Shown: positions 6,190 through 62,967 of the stretch, piece by piece
Numbering within the stretch: the stretch's first letter is position 1
Layout: the number at the start of each line of letters is the position of its first letter
NCBI GenBank assembly: GCA_963556255.1
Contig: OY744605.1
Coordinates: 4,475,187-4,539,186, forward strand
Length of the DNA stretch: 64,000 bases
Direction of reading: 5' to 3'
From: Allolobophora icterica
Taxonomy: Eukaryota; Annelida; Clitellata; Crassiclitellata; Lumbricidae
Notes under the pieces: generated by a model
Seen by the model: the letters and a program-made list of their open reading frames with translations, nothing else
Told to the model about the DNA's origin: nothing
Database searches by the model: none
Position numbers and translations under genes: made by a program

Positions 6190-6295
6190 TTATATAGCTG
6201 ACGTTAAGTCTTTTTAAGGGTGTCTAAATAGAGCAATAAATGGCTAGTCTGTCGCATTTCTATATAAAACAGGAAAACAACTTTGAAAGGTGTTT
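6190..6295 (-). promoter_or_regulatory. Two tandem PSE-TATA-like modules
   Basis: Reading leftward: a box AAACACCTTT starts at 6295 with TATATAG 29 bases later (6266), then AGACACCCTT at 6225 with TATATAAG 29 bases later (6196). Same-direction copies 70 bp apart. Confidence 0.6.
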
Positions 6296-6949
6296 AAAGA
6301 ATTCTAAACAATTGTGTCCTACACTGGAAATAATAGTATCATACGATTGAGCATTGAATACTCTGCCTAGGAGAGCATAGACAATTCCGCGATAGTCTAG
6401 TCACTCTATTGGCTCACGCGTTGGACTCTGCACACCTTATTTCGCATTTAATATATGCGAGATACGATGAACACTGGCTTCCGGTTGCTGAGCGTATTGC
6501 TGTTAAGACAGTGTAAACATGCAGGCGCCAGCGCTCATCAGCTACAGTCCATCGCGCCCTCTCGTGTGTTTGAACACCATAGGCTAAATATGTCATCAGA
6601 TGGATCATGGAACAACTGGCCAAATTTAAAATTTGTGCGTTAAAGGGAAATGAAAGAATGGGGCCCTAAGGCAGAATCTCGCAGGGGGTGCGTACGCACC
6701 AGGTATGGCTACGCCTCTGCCGATGTGGTAGAGGAAATCTCACGAATGGTACCGTTCCAGTTCGACTGGGTGGTGGTGGAAAAGGAGGAGGCAAATAGTA
6801 GGAAGAGGAAGAGCGGAAACAGTTGGGCGGAGCCTACTGGAAAACTTTTGAAGGAGTAGTTATTTTGCTATTTTTTCTTTTCGTGTAAGGTAAGTTCTGA
6901 AGACTCTGGATTAGCTGTGTCGCCACGAACTTGGTCGAAGAAGCAGAAG
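6296..6949. other. Non-coding spacer
   Basis: No supported gene. Short frames at 6455-6643 and 6650-6859 have no recognisable domain and no homologous copy in the window. Confidence 0.5.
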
Positions 6950-7860
6950 CAGGGCCGTATTAACCTGGGTGGAGGCCCCAGTGCACCGCCGTGGTGGAGG
7001 CCCATAGGACCATGGACGTCCGGAGGGGGTTAGGGGCATTTCTCCCTGGATTTTGAAAATATTAAAAAAATATTAAATTTTATGATTATTCCAACAGTCC
7101 CAAAACGATTTTCAATGCTAAAAAACAATTATTGAAGTAAGTCAACTATTCTATGCAAAAAACGTCATTTTATTCCCCTACCAAAATTTTGCCCCCGAAA
7201 ATTTTGCTCCCCTAGAAATTTTTGCCCCTCTGGGAAAATTCCTGCGGACGCCCAATACAAATACGCAGTAAGATTACATTGAAACATGACAGTAGTTATC
7301 AAGATTAAACACACGTTTTGGCAGCCATTGAATCTAGAACTAGTAGTATGCCAGAATTAAAGCCCAGAATTTTGAATTTCATGTATTGGCTGATACTCCA
7401 GAAACAAGTTCAGGGATCATTTCCTAATGTGGAGATAGCACTCCGAATGTATCTGGTGCTTATGGTCAGTAACTGCAGTGCAGAACGTTCATTCTCAAAA
7501 ATGAAACTAATAAAGAACAGACTTTGCACATCGATGGGGAATGAGCGGTTGTCCCACCTGGCTCTAATAAGCATAGAAGCTGACATTCTGTGTGAGATCA
7601 ACTCTGAGGATCTGGTAACCGAATTTGCGAAGAAGAAAACGCTAATTTGACATTAAGCTTACTTCATGCCTGAGACAAAATATCTCCTGACCTTTTAACT
7701 GTTTCTTTGTTTTAGATATTTGTGTTAAATTACTGAAATATTTTATAATCAGTTATGAAACACAAGTCAAAAAATTTCTTGCACCTTTGTGGTGGAGGCC
7801 CCTATGTGGTGGGGGCCCCTGTGCACTGGCACATAGTGCACATGAATAAATCCGGGCCTG
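6950..7860 (+). mobile_element. hAT DNA transposon, internally deleted
   Basis: The ends are related inverted repeats (left CAGGGCCGTATTAA, right inverse CAGGCCCGGATTTA). They are flanked by the perfect 8-bp duplication AGCAGAAG at 6942-6949 and 7861-7868, the hAT signature. Only the 3' end of the transposase remains. A segment near 7010-7254 bounded by GGACGTCCG and CGGACGCCC may be a smaller nested element. Confidence 0.85.
7318..7650 (+). pseudogene. hAT transposase C-terminal dimerisation domain, fragment
   Basis: About 110 codons ending in TGA at 7648-7650. The motif NCSAERSFSKMKLIKNRL followed by LSHLALISIEAD is the C-terminal dimerisation region of hAT transposases and of ZMYM1-like host proteins derived from them. 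The catalytic core and DNA-binding finger are absent, so this cannot be a working transposase. It lies inside an element with hAT ends and an 8-bp duplication, which supports a transposon remnant over a host gene. No true start codon is evident; the frame opens with TTG. Confidence 0.8.
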
Positions 7861-7868
7861 AGCAGAAG

Positions 7869-8659
7869 ATCGCTTCGAAACTCGTAGTCGCTTGCTCCGT
7901 CGACATCCACCAACCCAATCCACAACAGAACATTTCTGCAAGTAAACTCTTACAGCAGCATTAGAATCATCATAACTCTTCACGACAGTAGACTGTCAGT
8001 AGTCATACTTGACATGTAACACTTCAGTGCATCAACACACCTTCGTTGACACAATCAATCCGAAGATAGACAACATAGGTCCAGTATAAACGCAGCCAGA
8101 CAACCACTGGCCAACACATATCACAGGACACAACAGACCAATGCCATGCCGCATGGTCCAACAAAACGTAAGGCTACAACACAGCCAATTCTCATTTGTT
8201 TATTCGTTAAAATAAAGATTTACGTACAACCAACTCCGGAAATGATGTCATTTAGATCGAATGCCTCACTTCACGATAGTAAGTAGGAGTTGGATTTAGA
8301 ATATTGGCTACCGCGAAAACAGATCGGTACGTCACTGTGAATATAAAGGCGTCATTTGAGTGGCATGCCGTCGATACAGATATGGTTTGGGGCCATACCA
8401 GTATGGATTTCTCGCTTTTAGAAGTTCCGGTATGCTTTCAGCCAGCCAGGAGAGGTGCCGCTATGGCATACAGTTTCATACTGTCTTATTATTATTAATC
8501 CAACGTTTAACGTCGCCATATGACATCAATGGCCGTTGACGACAACTTCGAGAACTGGAATTTCTAGCGTCTGAAAAGCACTATTTAAAGGTGTCAAACA
8601 TAACTTTACAATGTCAATAGTGTTCATTGTTTAACGACATCAGCTGATAAGCTAACACC
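7869..8659. other. Non-coding spacer
   Basis: No gene recognised. A decayed module (box GACACCTTTA near 8595, minus) has lost its TATA. Confidence 0.4.
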
Positions 8660-8696
8660 TTATCTTATCTTATCTTATCTTATCTTATCTTATCTT
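8660..8696. repeat. TTATC pentanucleotide repeat
   Basis: About seven perfect TTATC units in a row. The following bases (8699-8760, TTTATAAAGCGCC) resemble the 3' end of LINE/SINE tails elsewhere in the window. Confidence 0.9.
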
Positions 8697-9139
8697 TACT
8701 GATTATTTATAAAGCGCCTCTCACAGCACAGACTATTCAGAGGCGCTCCCAGCGTGACAGCCCCGATGGAAAAGAAAGGTGTTTAGGCAGCGGAGAGAAG
8801 AGGGCGAGATTCCAAGCAATATCTTGCTACGGAGAGAGGGGGCAGGTCATTCCACAGGAAGGGCCAAGGATGGCAAAAGCACGATGCTGAGCCATCGAAG
8901 TCCTTAATAATGTCTATGGTATACATGTATTGTGAAAAGCTGATATCTGATACAAATTTAACAATAATATGCAGTGTTTGTCATACATGAGATACTTTAA
9001 ACGTAAAATAGATTCTTGTTGAACATTCTAAGTGTATATGAGATTCTTAATCTATTTATTTAAACACTTCAGTTCGCTTCTGATCTATTTCTCAGCAATC
9101 CACGAATATTCTATAGCTACCTGATTTACCGCAATCGAA

Positions 9140-9177
9140 TATACATAGGATCGGTCAGTAGCGTTTTAAAGGTGTTT
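9140..9177 (-). promoter_or_regulatory. PSE-TATA-like module
   Basis: Box AAACACCTTTAAAACG starts at 9177; TATGTATA begins 30 bases downstream on the minus strand. Confidence 0.5.
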
Positions 9178-9309
9178 AAAGAGTGCATTATATAAGCCCT
9201 ACAGATGAATATTATTGTCGTAATCAGCACTGATTAACGACATCTGACGGCGGCGAGAGCCTTTTACGTCGACCGTACTTTAGTTTTGAAAGACATCACA
9301 TACCTGGAC

Positions 9310-61556: not shown

Positions 61557-61744
61557 ATGTACAGTCGGTAAAATAAAGAATATACTTAAATACTTACACA
61601 TATATTCATTTCTTGAAATGATGGAGGGGTGAAAAGCGCTGGGTTCCGTGAGCAAATAAGTGCTTTGTGCAAGGTTTCGTCATAATAAAACGGATGAAAA
61701 CGACTAATTTAGAGACTAATGATTTAAAAATTTCTTATAGAAAC

Positions 61745-61802
61745 GGATGGTCCAGAGCATATCGACAACTTATCTCAACAAAAGCCGTTGACATCGACAG
61801 AA
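61745..61802 (-). repeat. Block M, diverged
   Basis: Plus strand: GATGGTCCAGAGCATATCGA, CAACTTATCTCAACAAAAGC, CGTTGACATCGACAG. Confidence 0.55.
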
Positions 61803-61952
61803 ATTAATTTTGAACTGTACTCGCCGTTCGTGTGGCTCAGTATGAATATTCAAATAAAAGAAGACTACTTTAAACACCTCTAACTCCGCCACTGCCCTAC
61901 ATGTGGTAGTGGCAGGCCCAAGGCTGTTGAAAGAAAAAGTATCCAACCAACT

Positions 61953-62202
61953 AAACACCTCTTTTACGTGTTGCTTTTGCCCATAAGAGAATACGCACGG
62001 GAACTCATTTCAGCTTTCTGATTAACGTCTTATTCATAAAGAAACCGTAAAGGCTGGATGGATCTAGGGTTTAACGACATCTTATAGCAACAAAGGCTGT
62101 TGACGTCGACAGAAATTATTTTTGGCGTATTACAGCTCTTTAACCGTAGCCATTCGTCTGCTTTTAGTTATTGGGCGGAAAAACACATAAAAAGAGGTGT
62201 TA
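61953..62202. promoter_or_regulatory. Convergent PSE-TATA-like modules enclosing inverted block M
   Basis: Plus: AAACACCTCTTTTACGTG at 61953, CATAAGAG 29 on. Minus: TAACACCTCTTTTTATG from 62202, AATAACTA in the TATA position. Block M between them (62060-62120) runs opposite to that at 33376 and ends AATTATTTTTGGC on the plus strand. Confidence 0.58.
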
Positions 62203-62280
62203 AGGGAATGCTCGCCCATAGAAAGTGAGAATGCTACCCGGTTAAATGCACGTTCCCAGGGATTGGTCAGTAGTTTAAGT

Positions 62281-62907
62281 CATACTGGTCACCAACTGGA
62301 AGTGCAAGAAGAACATGAGGACGCTGGACTGGTCCGCCCAATCCCCGGATTTGAATCCGATTGAGAATCTTTGGCATAAAATAGCCATGGAGATATCCAC
62401 GAGACAACCGACCACCAAGCGCTAGCTGACCGAGTCGCACATCGCCGCCTGCCATGGACGCCCCCAACCACCTCATCAGGCTGGTCCAAACAATGCTGAC
62501 ACGCTGCAGACAAGTGGCAAAGATCCAGGGCTGGTCCATAAAATACTGATCAATCATTGGCTTTTGTCAAGGCTACTACATGATAGAGAAGACATACGAT
62601 CACAAATGTTCGTTATTTAATGTCAACACATTGCGCTATGCACAGTACTGTTAATCTCGATCCAACTCTGACGCCCAATCCGTCATTCCTATGGTTTCTA
62701 TAGTAGGTTCATGTTATCGTATCATAACTAATGTGAAACTAAGAGTCACTCATCTTAAGATGTTGATTTTCAAAGCTAAATACAACACCTATAACATTAA
62801 ATAAAATGAATGATATTACCTCTAAGGCTGAATAGAGATAAAAGCACTGGAAGCCGAAAAATCGCAAAAATGTTGGGTGATGCAAAACTTATGCACACCA
62901 CTGTATG
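62281..62907 (+). pseudogene. Tc1-like transposase C-terminal fragment and terminus
   Basis: Frame at 62288-62422: NWKCKKNMRTLDWSAQSPDL, NPIENLWHKIAMEISTRQPT, then TAG. DWSAQSPDLNPIENLW holds the third catalytic acidic residue (Glu) of the Tc1/mariner DDE transposase. The first two acidic residues are absent. The right terminus TTATGCACACCACTGTA (to 62907) is the element's inverted end, the same type as at 51366. Dead element. Confidence 0.85.
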
Positions 62908-62928
62908 AATAGAAGCGCAGTTGATATT

Positions 62929-62967
62929 AGACACCTTTAAAAGAGACCTTATGTTGAAATATAAATC
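62929..62967 (+). promoter_or_regulatory. Altered PSE-TATA-like module
   Basis: AGACACCTTTAAAAGAG at 62929, TATAAATC 31 on; close to 41942. Confidence 0.45.

Follow-up and report, generated by a model that had tools for sequence, protein, structure and literature searches.

The type-I (Ruby-motif, 21U) piRNA genes of nematodes are many individually promoted units, each with a SNAPc-type motif of snRNA origin at a fixed distance, a YRNT initiator and a distinct short product, and they lie in Mb-scale clusters, as far as extracts of the reports describe them (PMC6436959, PMC7917550, PMC11262695). The Pol II snRNA and piRNA promoters of nematodes are said, in an extract of one of these reports, to lack a TATA box (PMC6436959). 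Earthworms already have ordinary transposon piRNAs, of 29-30 nt on the 5'U strand and 26-27 nt on the ping-pong strand; the extracts of the report describe them as TE-derived and do not mention individual promoters (PMC6085071).

Here we describe PSE-TATA modules of the earthworm Allolobophora icterica in a window of 64,000 nucleotides near a chromosome end. The earlier note suggested that this locus may be a field of small-RNA genes, a reading that the sequence supports in part. The modules share with the nematode genes the fixed-distance motif, the YRNT initiator, the Mb-scale clustering and, as predicted here, the distinct short product. Unlike them, they belong to an annelid, carry a strong TATA box, cluster towards the ends of many chromosomes, show no evident pausing signature in their GC profile and are known here from DNA sequence alone. 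With the metazoan Pol II snRNA promoter (U1/U2 type, with a SNAPc-bound PSE) they share a similar PSE and the same box-start distance; unlike at U1/U2 genes, no Rfam RNA follows the modules in the window, and the downstream sequence shows no enrichment of the snRNA 3' box at the chosen cut.

We put the probability that the modules are individually promoted short Pol II RNA genes, piRNA-like and in an annelid, at roughly one half. Each would be an snRNA-type core promoter built like the earthworm's own U2 promoter: a SNAPc-type PSE, a TATA 29-30 bases past its first base, and a start ~59-60 bases past it. Each undecayed module most likely recruits SNAPc and TBP and most likely fires RNA polymerase II independently. 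The product would be a very short RNA (~25 nt), unique and fast-changing in sequence, which might be loaded into PIWI or another Argonaute protein. Such genes would work like nematode type-I piRNA genes with a separate origin, and an earthworm would hold a small-RNA gene field laid out like theirs.

Modules in the window

The claim of more than 50 PSE-TATA-like modules with 29-30 base spacing on both strands is borne out. A two-part PWM (box and TATA), trained on the window itself, finds 71 modules above a cut of 14 bits, compared with 0.17 expected from six Markov-3 sequences. The TATA begins 29-30 bases past the box start in 59 of the 71 (30 in 35 modules, 29 in 24) and 27-28 or 31-33 bases past it in 12. 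All nine coordinates that the earlier note gave as examples are correct and fall among these modules. Counting both strands, there are 48 copies of the literal box (ANACACCYTT or ANACACCTCT), where 60 Markov-3 sequences average 5.2 and reach 12 at most; with a TATA 26-33 bases downstream it occurs 31 times (mean 0.13, maximum 1 in 60 such sequences). The distance to TATA also peaks at 29/30 when boxes are picked by box score alone: 76 boxes exceed 11 bits, a TATA above 6 bits lies within 10-59 bases in 56, and 50 of these 56 are at 29/30.

The list gives window coordinates, strand, box-start-to-TATA spacing and PWM score; every entry is a PSE-TATA module, the weak ones being named as such.

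6190..6225, minus, module, spacing 29, 29.0 bits, YRNT at predicted start
6260..6295, minus, module, spacing 29, 28.7 bits, tandem with 6190..6225, YRNT at predicted start
8560..8596, minus, module, spacing 30, weak TATA, 21.1 bits
9141..9177, minus, module, spacing 30, 35.8 bits
10065..10101, plus, module, spacing 30, 28.5 bits
10133..10169, plus, module, spacing 30, YRNT at predicted start
11059..11095, plus, module, spacing 30, 34.8 bits
12299..12335, plus, module, spacing 30, 29.6 bits, first of three-module tandem
12375..12411, plus, module, spacing 30, 29.2 bits
12439..12475, plus, module, spacing 30, 33.0 bits
12573..12611, plus, module, spacing 32, 30.5 bits
16252..16288, minus, module, spacing 30, 31.3 bits
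17165..17201, plus, module, spacing 30, 31.0 bits
17251..17287, minus, module, spacing 30, 33.6 bits, convergent with 17165..17201
17701..17736, plus, module, spacing 29, 28.7 bits
21112..21147, plus, module, spacing 29, 35.7 bits
22498..22534, plus, module, spacing 30, 29.4 bits
23570..23605, minus, module, spacing 29, 32.9 bits
23625..23660, minus, module, spacing 29, 24.4 bits, tandem with 23570..23605
24280..24316, plus, module, spacing 30, 31.5 bits
24370..24405, minus, module, spacing 29, 31.7 bits, convergent with 24280..24316
26499..26535, plus, module, spacing 30, 38.6 bits
27519..27554, minus, module, spacing 29, 29.6 bits
27576..27611, minus, module, spacing 29, 39.2 bits, tandem with 27519..27554
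27776..27812, minus, module, spacing 30, 23.2 bits
28166..28200, minus, module, spacing 28, 20.0 bits
28229..28265, minus, module, spacing 30, 30.6 bits, tandem with 28166..28200
28694..28729, plus, module, spacing 29, YRNT at predicted start
29639..29674, minus, module, spacing 29, 33.8 bits
30016..30051, plus, module, spacing 29, 29.8 bits
30594..30630, plus, module, spacing 30, 24.1 bits
32717..32752, minus, module, spacing 29, 32.4 bits
32773..32809, minus, module, spacing 30, 37.7 bits, tandem with 32717..32752
33376..33412, plus, module, spacing 30, 27.5 bits
33546..33581, minus, module, spacing 29, 31.7 bits
33837..33873, minus, module, spacing 30, 33.7 bits
34700..34738, plus, module, spacing 32, 36.0 bits
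35899..35937, plus, weak module, 19.1 bits, overlaps opposite-strand 35883..35919
35883..35919, minus, module, spacing 30, YRNT at predicted start
36120..36156, plus, module, spacing 30, 36.6 bits
39933..39966, plus, weak module, spacing 27, becomes 29 if registered 3 bases upstream
41942..41979, plus, module, spacing 31, 20.1 bits
43246..43281, minus, module, spacing 29, 30.1 bits
43301..43339, minus, module, spacing 32, 32.7 bits, tandem with 43246..43281
43508..43544, minus, module, spacing 30, 38.5 bits
44098..44134, plus, module, spacing 30, 36.3 bits
44181..44216, minus, module, spacing 29, 21.4 bits
45699..45736, plus, module, spacing 31, 20.1 bits
48719..48754, minus, module, copy of 43246..43281
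48776..48812, minus, module, copy of 43301..43339
48981..49017, minus, module, copy of 43508..43544
49571..49607, plus, module, copy of 44098..44134
49654..49689, minus, module, copy of 44181..44216
52031..52067, plus, module, spacing 30, YRNT at predicted start
52107..52140, plus, module, spacing 27, 21.2 bits, YRNT at predicted start
53238..53274, plus, module, spacing 30, 38.1 bits
53326..53360, minus, module, spacing 28, 20.2 bits, convergent with 53238..53274
53784..53819, plus, module, spacing 29, YRNT at predicted start
53960..53996, plus, module, spacing 30, 20.8 bits
54555..54591, plus, module, spacing 30, 36.5 bits
54668..54704, minus, module, spacing 30, 18.0 bits, YRNT at predicted start
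55722..55757, plus, module, spacing 29, 29.9 bits
56152..56187, plus, module, spacing 29, 34.8 bits
57168..57204, plus, module, spacing 30, 30.9 bits
57390..57426, plus, module, spacing 30, 34.7 bits
59015..59050, minus, module, spacing 29, 38.0 bits
59068..59107, minus, module, spacing 33, 35.4 bits, tandem with 59015..59050
60488..60523, minus, module, spacing 29, 23.1 bits
61953..61988, plus, module, spacing 29, 31.3 bits
62166..62202, minus, module, spacing 30, 23.3 bits
62929..62966, plus, module, spacing 31, 21.0 bits

Comparison with snRNA promoters

The U1 (n = 15) and U2 (n = 10) promoters of A. icterica contain an ACC-containing PSE at about -60, with the ACC at one common place in 25 of 25 and box-to-start distances of 58-61. 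ACACC itself is present in 14 of the 25, and the match to the modules is imperfect. The TATA lies 29-32 bases from the box start in eight of the ten U2 promoters, a spacing that the modules share; two of the ten score above the 14-bit cut of the module PWM.

When a PSE PWM built only from the U1/U2 genes of the genome is scanned over the window, module boxes make up 10 of the top 10, 26 of the top 40 and 43 of the top 100 matches, and 47 of the 71 exceed the 99.9th percentile of the window. Matches above 9 bits number 60 in the window and 80 in the clusters, the TATA then lying mainly at 29-32; four mid-chromosome pieces yield seven, none followed by a TATA at 29-32. In the comparison that the earlier note called for, the boxes thus resemble the species' own U1/U2 PSEs. 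The snRNA/U6-type promoter proposed in the earlier note survives in its U1/U2-like PSE and U2 TATA spacing, but not in its U6 part, as the box-TATA spacing is 35 in all five U6 promoters compared. At 29-30, the module spacing is that of a Pol II-type gene. Together with the top matches to the U1/U2-only PWM, the U2-like spacing indicates that the modules are, by sequence, U2-type rather than U6-type PSE-TATA elements.

Distribution across the genome

A strict pattern has 202 matches in the genome and 0 in the reversed control, and of 98 places checked, 89 are no more than 10 Mb from a chromosome end. Each of sixteen 10 kb pieces selected around strict matches contains 2-12 modules, compared with none in four mid-chromosome pieces. 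No window module fits the strict pattern within two mismatches, so the window modules are off the genome-wide consensus.

Flanks and duplicated copies

The main rival to short RNA genes is a passive repeat. In this reading the modules have no function today: old dispersed elements, one or more, would have carried a U2-like promoter, as a transposon or SINE-like unit might after capturing one, and would have spread and been multiplied by duplication. We consider this unlikely. An ungapped alignment of 54 modules carries information from about -10 to about +45 and has ~0.26 identity outside that span. Far-flank identity is below 0.34 in 1426 of 1431 pairs while box, TATA and spacing hold, and a common unit longer than ~55 bases across all modules is not seen, all of which argues against a repeat. 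Flank divergence, as described in the earlier note, thus stands for ungapped comparison, but when gaps are allowed, blast (E 1e-3) with single linkage puts 87 of 117 deduplicated modules in one group by their flanks, a grouping that is probably over-linked. Many modules sit within diverged segmental duplications, some in short tandem arrays; given this and the linked flanks, the 71 modules are not independent events. These features favor the repeat, as do some modules that appear decayed by eye.

In duplicated copies, identity reaches 0.90 in the box core and 0.85 in the TATA, compared with 0.76-0.80 in the flanks and ~0.63 in the spacer and downstream, which speaks against the passive repeat. 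The concern that flanks might be as conserved as the boxes is allayed for box core and TATA; taken across the entire module, identity is only slightly higher (0.745 vs 0.716 for the rest; higher in 34 of 48 alignments), as the repeat would have it.

The ~25 bases past the predicted start diverge more than the flanks in duplicated copies, both inside the window and outside. Of 124 pairs, 46 are readable, and identity at +30..+52 is lower than at +60..+110 in 41 of them (p = 7e-8); compared with -100..-45 it is lower in 31 of 39 (p = 1.9e-6). With each module used once, the dip is found in 20 of 23 (medians, 200 draws; median p = 6.5e-5, worst 0.0025). Its depth is -0.145; 2000 random anchors placed in these alignments give -0.005 (sd 0.020) and go no lower than -0.082. 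The low-identity zone begins at about +15, ahead of the predicted start, and identity is also low in the box-TATA spacer, so part of this divergence may reflect unconstrained or hypermutable promoter DNA.

Initiator and downstream sequence

Outside the window, YRNT occurs at +29 from the TATA, the U2 start distance, in 22 of 75 deduplicated modules (~8% background). Weighted over 31 flank groups (30 singletons and the linked group of 87 modules), the share at +29 is 39% against 7%. Because of lesser peaks at +18 (24%; weighted 33%) and +25 (20%; weighted 23%), +29 is the highest peak and not the sole one. In the window alone, YRNT stands at the predicted start of 9 of 71 modules (p = 0.11); this enrichment is not significant, a point for the passive repeat.

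A duplicated subtelomeric gene family that uses the modules as alternative or tandem promoters for longer Pol II RNAs, whether coding or non-coding, seems quite unlikely. By eye, there are three copies of duplicated ankyrin-type exons, with same-strand modules past an apparent splice donor, and ORFs that follow the predicted start average 18.3 aa in sense, slightly more than the 14.9 in antisense or the 14.8 in shuffled sequence (means only). However, only 4 of 103 modules have a splice-donor word no more than 120 bases from the predicted start, and an arrangement on both strands, with convergent pairs and with tandems of 55-76 bases, fits gene promoters poorly. The sequence past the start is also the least conserved part.

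We judge it very unlikely that the modules are unproductive SNAPc/TBP-binding arrays that organize chromatin near chromosome ends or titrate factor without making RNA. Within the window the PSE core and the TATA are kept although the initiator is not significant, and the modules lie towards chromosome ends, but the initiator is enriched outside the window, and SNAPc binding alone would not need a TATA box.

Pol III type-3 (U6-like) small-RNA genes are scarcely credible, even though vertebrate U6 promoters also combine PSE and TATA and one subtype of module looks, by eye, like the U6 PSE, given the U6 spacing of 35 and T-runs that are not enriched (46% of 103 modules have TTTT no more than 120 bases from the start, and 63% have AAAA).

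A point against the short RNA genes is that the predicted RNA would reach into the next same-strand PSE in 12 of the 71 modules.

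Number and layout of the modules

The window holds many copies of a module in which a box resembling a SNAPc-type proximal sequence element (PSE) is followed by TATA at a nearly constant distance. The earlier note put their number above 50, on both strands, with a fixed 29-30 bases from the first base of the box to TATA. Its nine example coordinates are all correct, and the search results agree with its description. Where chance predicts 5.2 copies of the literal box, the window has 48, and 31 box-TATA pairs have TATA 26-33 bases on (0.13 expected); a PWM search yields 71 modules above 14 bits across the two strands, compared with 0.17 in Markov-3 sequence. 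The spacing is 30 in 35 of these modules, 29 in 24 and other in 12. When boxes are picked on box score alone, 56 of 76 have TATA 10-59 bases on, at 29/30 in 50 of the 56; for 16 other cluster pieces, the figures are 69 of 95 and 56 of 69, and four mid-chromosome pieces contain no such box.

Ungapped alignment on the box of 54 modules with spacing 29/30, leaving out the copy at 48.5-50 kb, confines the information to about -10 to +45. In the extended consensus, a lead rich in T and C precedes A-R-ACACC-TTTTAAACG, which 8-9 free bases separate from CTATATA. Modules are found in diverged segmental duplications, as pairs or triples in tandem at distances of 55-76 bases, and in convergent pairs, and 12 of the 71 predicted RNAs in the window would overlap the next PSE. 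Neither Rfam nor ARAGORN finds a known RNA in the window (0 matches each).

Near-palindromic boxes (ACACC...GGTGT) at 35899/35919, 36120/36141 and 53238/53258 carry a weaker box on the opposite strand at the same place.

Comparison with snRNA promoters of the same genome

The snRNA genes located comprise 14 Rfam matches for U6 (10 over the cut-off), 46 for U2 and 30 for U1, and the upstream DNA of 15 U1 and 10 U2 genes served as the promoter comparison set. All 25 promoters have ACC at a common place and 14 have ACACC; the RNA starts 58-61 bases after the first base of the box, and the shared consensus is TT..ACACCTTTTTTA. TATA falls at 28-32 in eight of the 10 U2 promoters (at 29-32) and in two of the 15 U1 promoters; in the five U6 promoters compared, it lies at 35.

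A PWM built from U1 and U2 promoters only recovers the modules. Its top matches in the window are module boxes in 10 of 10, 15 of 20 and 26 of 40 cases, so that the resemblance to the species' own snRNA PSE, which the earlier note set as a check, is borne out, and 47 of the 71 module boxes score above the window's 99.9th percentile. TATA follows these matches mainly at 29-32, both in the window and in the other clusters; the controls give seven matches, none with TATA at 29-32 or nearby. The reverse comparison is weaker: the module PWM exceeds 14 bits in two of 10 U2 promoters, with two more reaching 13.7, and no U6 promoter passes 14 bits.

The suggestion of snRNA/U6-type promoters thus survives in part. 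The PSE is snRNA-like and the spacing matches U2; the five U6 promoters compared have a spacing of 35, and T-runs are not enriched after the predicted start. U6/Pol III type-3 genes fit neither the spacing nor the missing T-run terminator signal and are very unlikely. Judged by sequence, the modules combine an snRNA-kind PSE with the spacing of U2, a Pol II-type gene, and we consider them very probably snRNA-type PSE-TATA elements.

The snRNA loci themselves differ in spacing, 35 in five U6 promoters (loci L029-L036) versus 29-32 in eight of 10 U2 promoters (loci L043-L052), which corresponds to roughly half a turn of the helix. This displacement of 5-6 bases between most U2 and the compared U6 promoters is relevant to the question of what determines the choice of polymerase.

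Distribution in the genome

The Allolobophora icterica assembly wcApoIcte1.1 comprises 1,117.80 Mb in 356 scaffolds, with 16 chromosomes (PMC11530748). One strict module pattern with spacing 29 has 202 matches in it at no more than two mismatches (reversed control, 0) and fits none of the window's modules. Among 98 of the 100 places listed for the 202 matches, two on small contigs being left out, 89 lie no more than 10 Mb from a chromosome end, against an expectation of 27%. Sixteen 10-kb pieces picked around strict matches, some of them partly N, hold 2-12 modules each, and four mid-chromosome pieces hold none. Subtelomeric pieces of 0.9 kb taken without match selection contain five modules, in three of 17 readable pieces (the 18th is N), and two mid-chromosome pieces chosen likewise contain none; the window is therefore denser than average. 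Viral contigs and prokaryote genome contigs give no match to the module patterns.

At one of the other loci (L003, 1234-2033, plus strand), five modules follow one another at intervals of 107-295 bases. In several of them TATA is followed by GGATGG and the box is preceded by a stretch similar to GGTTAGAGCG that recalls a tRNA D-arm.

Start signal

In U2, about 30 bases separate the first base of TATA from the RNA start. At the corresponding position, +29, the 117 deduplicated modules from the window and other loci show YR in 44% (25% background) and the initiator word YRNT in 25% (8%), or 39% versus 7% when weighted over 31 flank groups. T at +31 accompanies YR at +28/+29 (29 of 51 versus 16 of 66, p 5e-4). 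Outside the window, 22 of 75 modules have YRNT at +29; inside, the counts are 9 of 71 (p 0.11) and, after deduplication, 7 of 42, which is a weak start signal. YRNT has further peaks at +18 and +25. Since YRNT also matches the ordinary metazoan initiator, it argues for a start site and not for piRNAs specifically.

Ahead of the predicted start, the modules show a second YRNT/CG-rich signal at about +17/+18, within the zone +12 to +20 from TATA; GCTGCGTTTAAT, present at several loci, is an example.

Sequence after the predicted start

The payloads, the roughly 25 bases after each predicted start, are nearly all distinct: among the 71 in the window, four pairs share at least 18 of 25 bases, all within one 97% duplication. 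In duplicated segments where both modules are kept, identity falls to 0.59-0.68 at +15 to +54 and is mostly 0.70-0.82 beyond, on both sides. For the pair test, three loci contained in others, alignments of more than 92% identity and pairs lacking readable windows were left out. Of the 46 readable pairs, 41 have lower identity at +30 to +52 than at +60 to +110 (p 7e-8), and 31 of 39 have lower identity there than at -100 to -45 (p 1.9e-6). When no module may be used more than once, the deficit is seen in 20 of 23 (medians over 200 draws). The difference is -0.145 at the modules, compared with -0.005 (sd 0.020) for anchors placed at random in those alignments. The drop is present inside the window (0.584 versus 0.715 and 0.767 in the comparison segments) and outside it (0.629 versus 0.778 and 0.800).

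The 3' edge of this fast zone, about 25 bases after the start, is where a very short RNA might be expected to end. Divergence already sets in ahead of the start site, and identity is low in the box-TATA spacer too. An alternative to selection for diversity is therefore that the zone is hypermutable, or merely unconstrained, promoter DNA.

After the predicted start, hairpins are not enriched (fold z < -2 in 4 of 80 stretches versus 6 of 80 controls), a splice-donor word follows the start in 4 of 103 modules, and the mean ORF is 18.3 aa in sense and 14.9 aa in antisense. A purine/pyrimidine asymmetry, arising in part from neighbouring modules, is suggestive only. EM recovered a motif like GAAAARTAAAA after several of 12 U1/U2 genes; it is not enriched after the modules at the single strict threshold applied, and snRNA-like RNAs with a 3' box were rejected.

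Flanks, duplications and the repeat explanation

The main rival is a passive dispersed repeat that carries the box and TATA along, an explanation we regard as unlikely. The earlier note had reported that flanks diverge, and in ungapped alignment they do, with identity of about 0.26 outside -10 to +45. Gapped blast, however, links the flanks of 87 of the 117 deduplicated modules from the window and other loci, so many flanks share descent, and module copies and their flanks are not independent; such clustering over-links, and weighting by its 31 groups corrects only roughly. If the modules were simply passengers, flanks might be as well conserved as boxes. Duplicated copies give 0.90 for the box core and 0.85 for TATA versus 0.76-0.80 for the flanks, and a repeat with conserved flanks is thus not the whole story. 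The rest of the box, at 0.764, stays near the flank values, and whole-module identity exceeds the remainder only slightly, as a passive repeat would have it. The linked flanks, the extra YRNT peaks and the absence of strict-pattern matches from the window add weight to the repeat and count against our best explanation, which we put at about 0.50.

A tandem duplication of 97% identity (42518-45421 / 47969-50932) contains five modules. The payloads are identical or almost identical in four of the five pairs; the fifth pair was assigned differing spacings. A 153-bp minisatellite at 18469-19709 and 38525-39748, with inverted copies, sits inside a 93%-identical duplication (18109-19781 / 38172-39822).

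Comparison with nematode piRNA genes

Our best explanation is that the modules would be numerous Pol II mini-genes of the U2 type, dependent on SNAPc, whose products are short, unique and rapidly changing. That they drive short independent RNAs we rate at even odds; that these RNAs would be PIWI-loaded, as the 21U RNAs of nematodes are, appears doubtful.

The nearest known system is that of nematode type-I piRNA genes, which have individual promoters with an snRNA-derived motif, a YRNT start, megabase clusters and capped precursors of about 28 nt (PMC6436959; PMC7917550; PMC11262695). At the sequence level, the modules resemble them in the snRNA-type upstream motif with fixed spacing, the distinct sequence after each predicted start and the megabase-scale clusters. 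YRNT at a fixed distance, a nematode feature, is enriched in modules outside the window only, and the GC profile of 117 modules has no clear drop of the sort that the nematode pausing signature (high, then low melting temperature) might leave. Unlike the nematode genes, the modules belong to an annelid and have TATA at 29/30 in the box-only scan; TATA is described as absent from nematode Pol II snRNA and piRNA promoters (PMC6436959). For these two reasons, we do not class the modules as nematode type-I piRNA genes. Earthworms have ordinary transposon piRNAs as well (PMC6085071).

Tentatively, then, an annelid may have independently co-opted a U2-type promoter for one-promoter-one-small-RNA genes towards chromosome ends, with fast-diversifying products of about 25 nt that are piRNA-like or belong to a new Argonaute-loaded class. 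With the same reserve, the arrangement of nematode piRNA genes could here have evolved again, in a version with TATA. Among the open-licence papers listed, individual snRNA-type promoters for small-RNA genes are confined to nematodes, and no title or start of abstract there describes such a system elsewhere, which leaves absence unproven. A second, annelid origin, if true, would mean that large adaptive small-RNA repertoires have arisen repeatedly by way of SNAPc promoters and would help to distinguish essential features (PSE, start motif) from a dispensable one (the lack of TATA).

Other features of the window

Besides the modules, the window contains the following.

3-4589, minus strand: Ty3/gypsy-type element with an uninterrupted 1529-aa frame, running off the window start
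7318-7650, plus strand: hAT transposase C-terminal dimerisation segment (Pfam)
about 12650-12850, 34850-35010 and 36300-36560, minus strand: repeat with a stretch like a tRNA-derived SINE head, by eye
30789-31544, plus strand: 251-aa ORF lacking a Pfam match, with 2015 similar proteins, the best 86% identical
56710-57093, plus strand: ankyrin-repeat exon (Pfam Ank_2) with apparent splice sites on both sides

Pfam searches of eight ORFs gave matches for two (ankyrin, hAT). Coding genes within the repeats were rejected, the codon-position test keeping 11 of 504 pairs, mostly short. ARAGORN found no tRNA in the SINE-head-like repeat, and the 251-aa ORF is possibly a piece of a retroelement. The Ty3/gypsy-type frame has SCAN, an integrase zinc finger and the integrase core ahead of reverse transcriptase, an order that we take to recall Gmr1-like elements. 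Partial copies of the ankyrin exon, fuller and truncated, lie near 9750, 11900, 42280, 46030 and 63560, and in three copies same-strand modules come after the exon.
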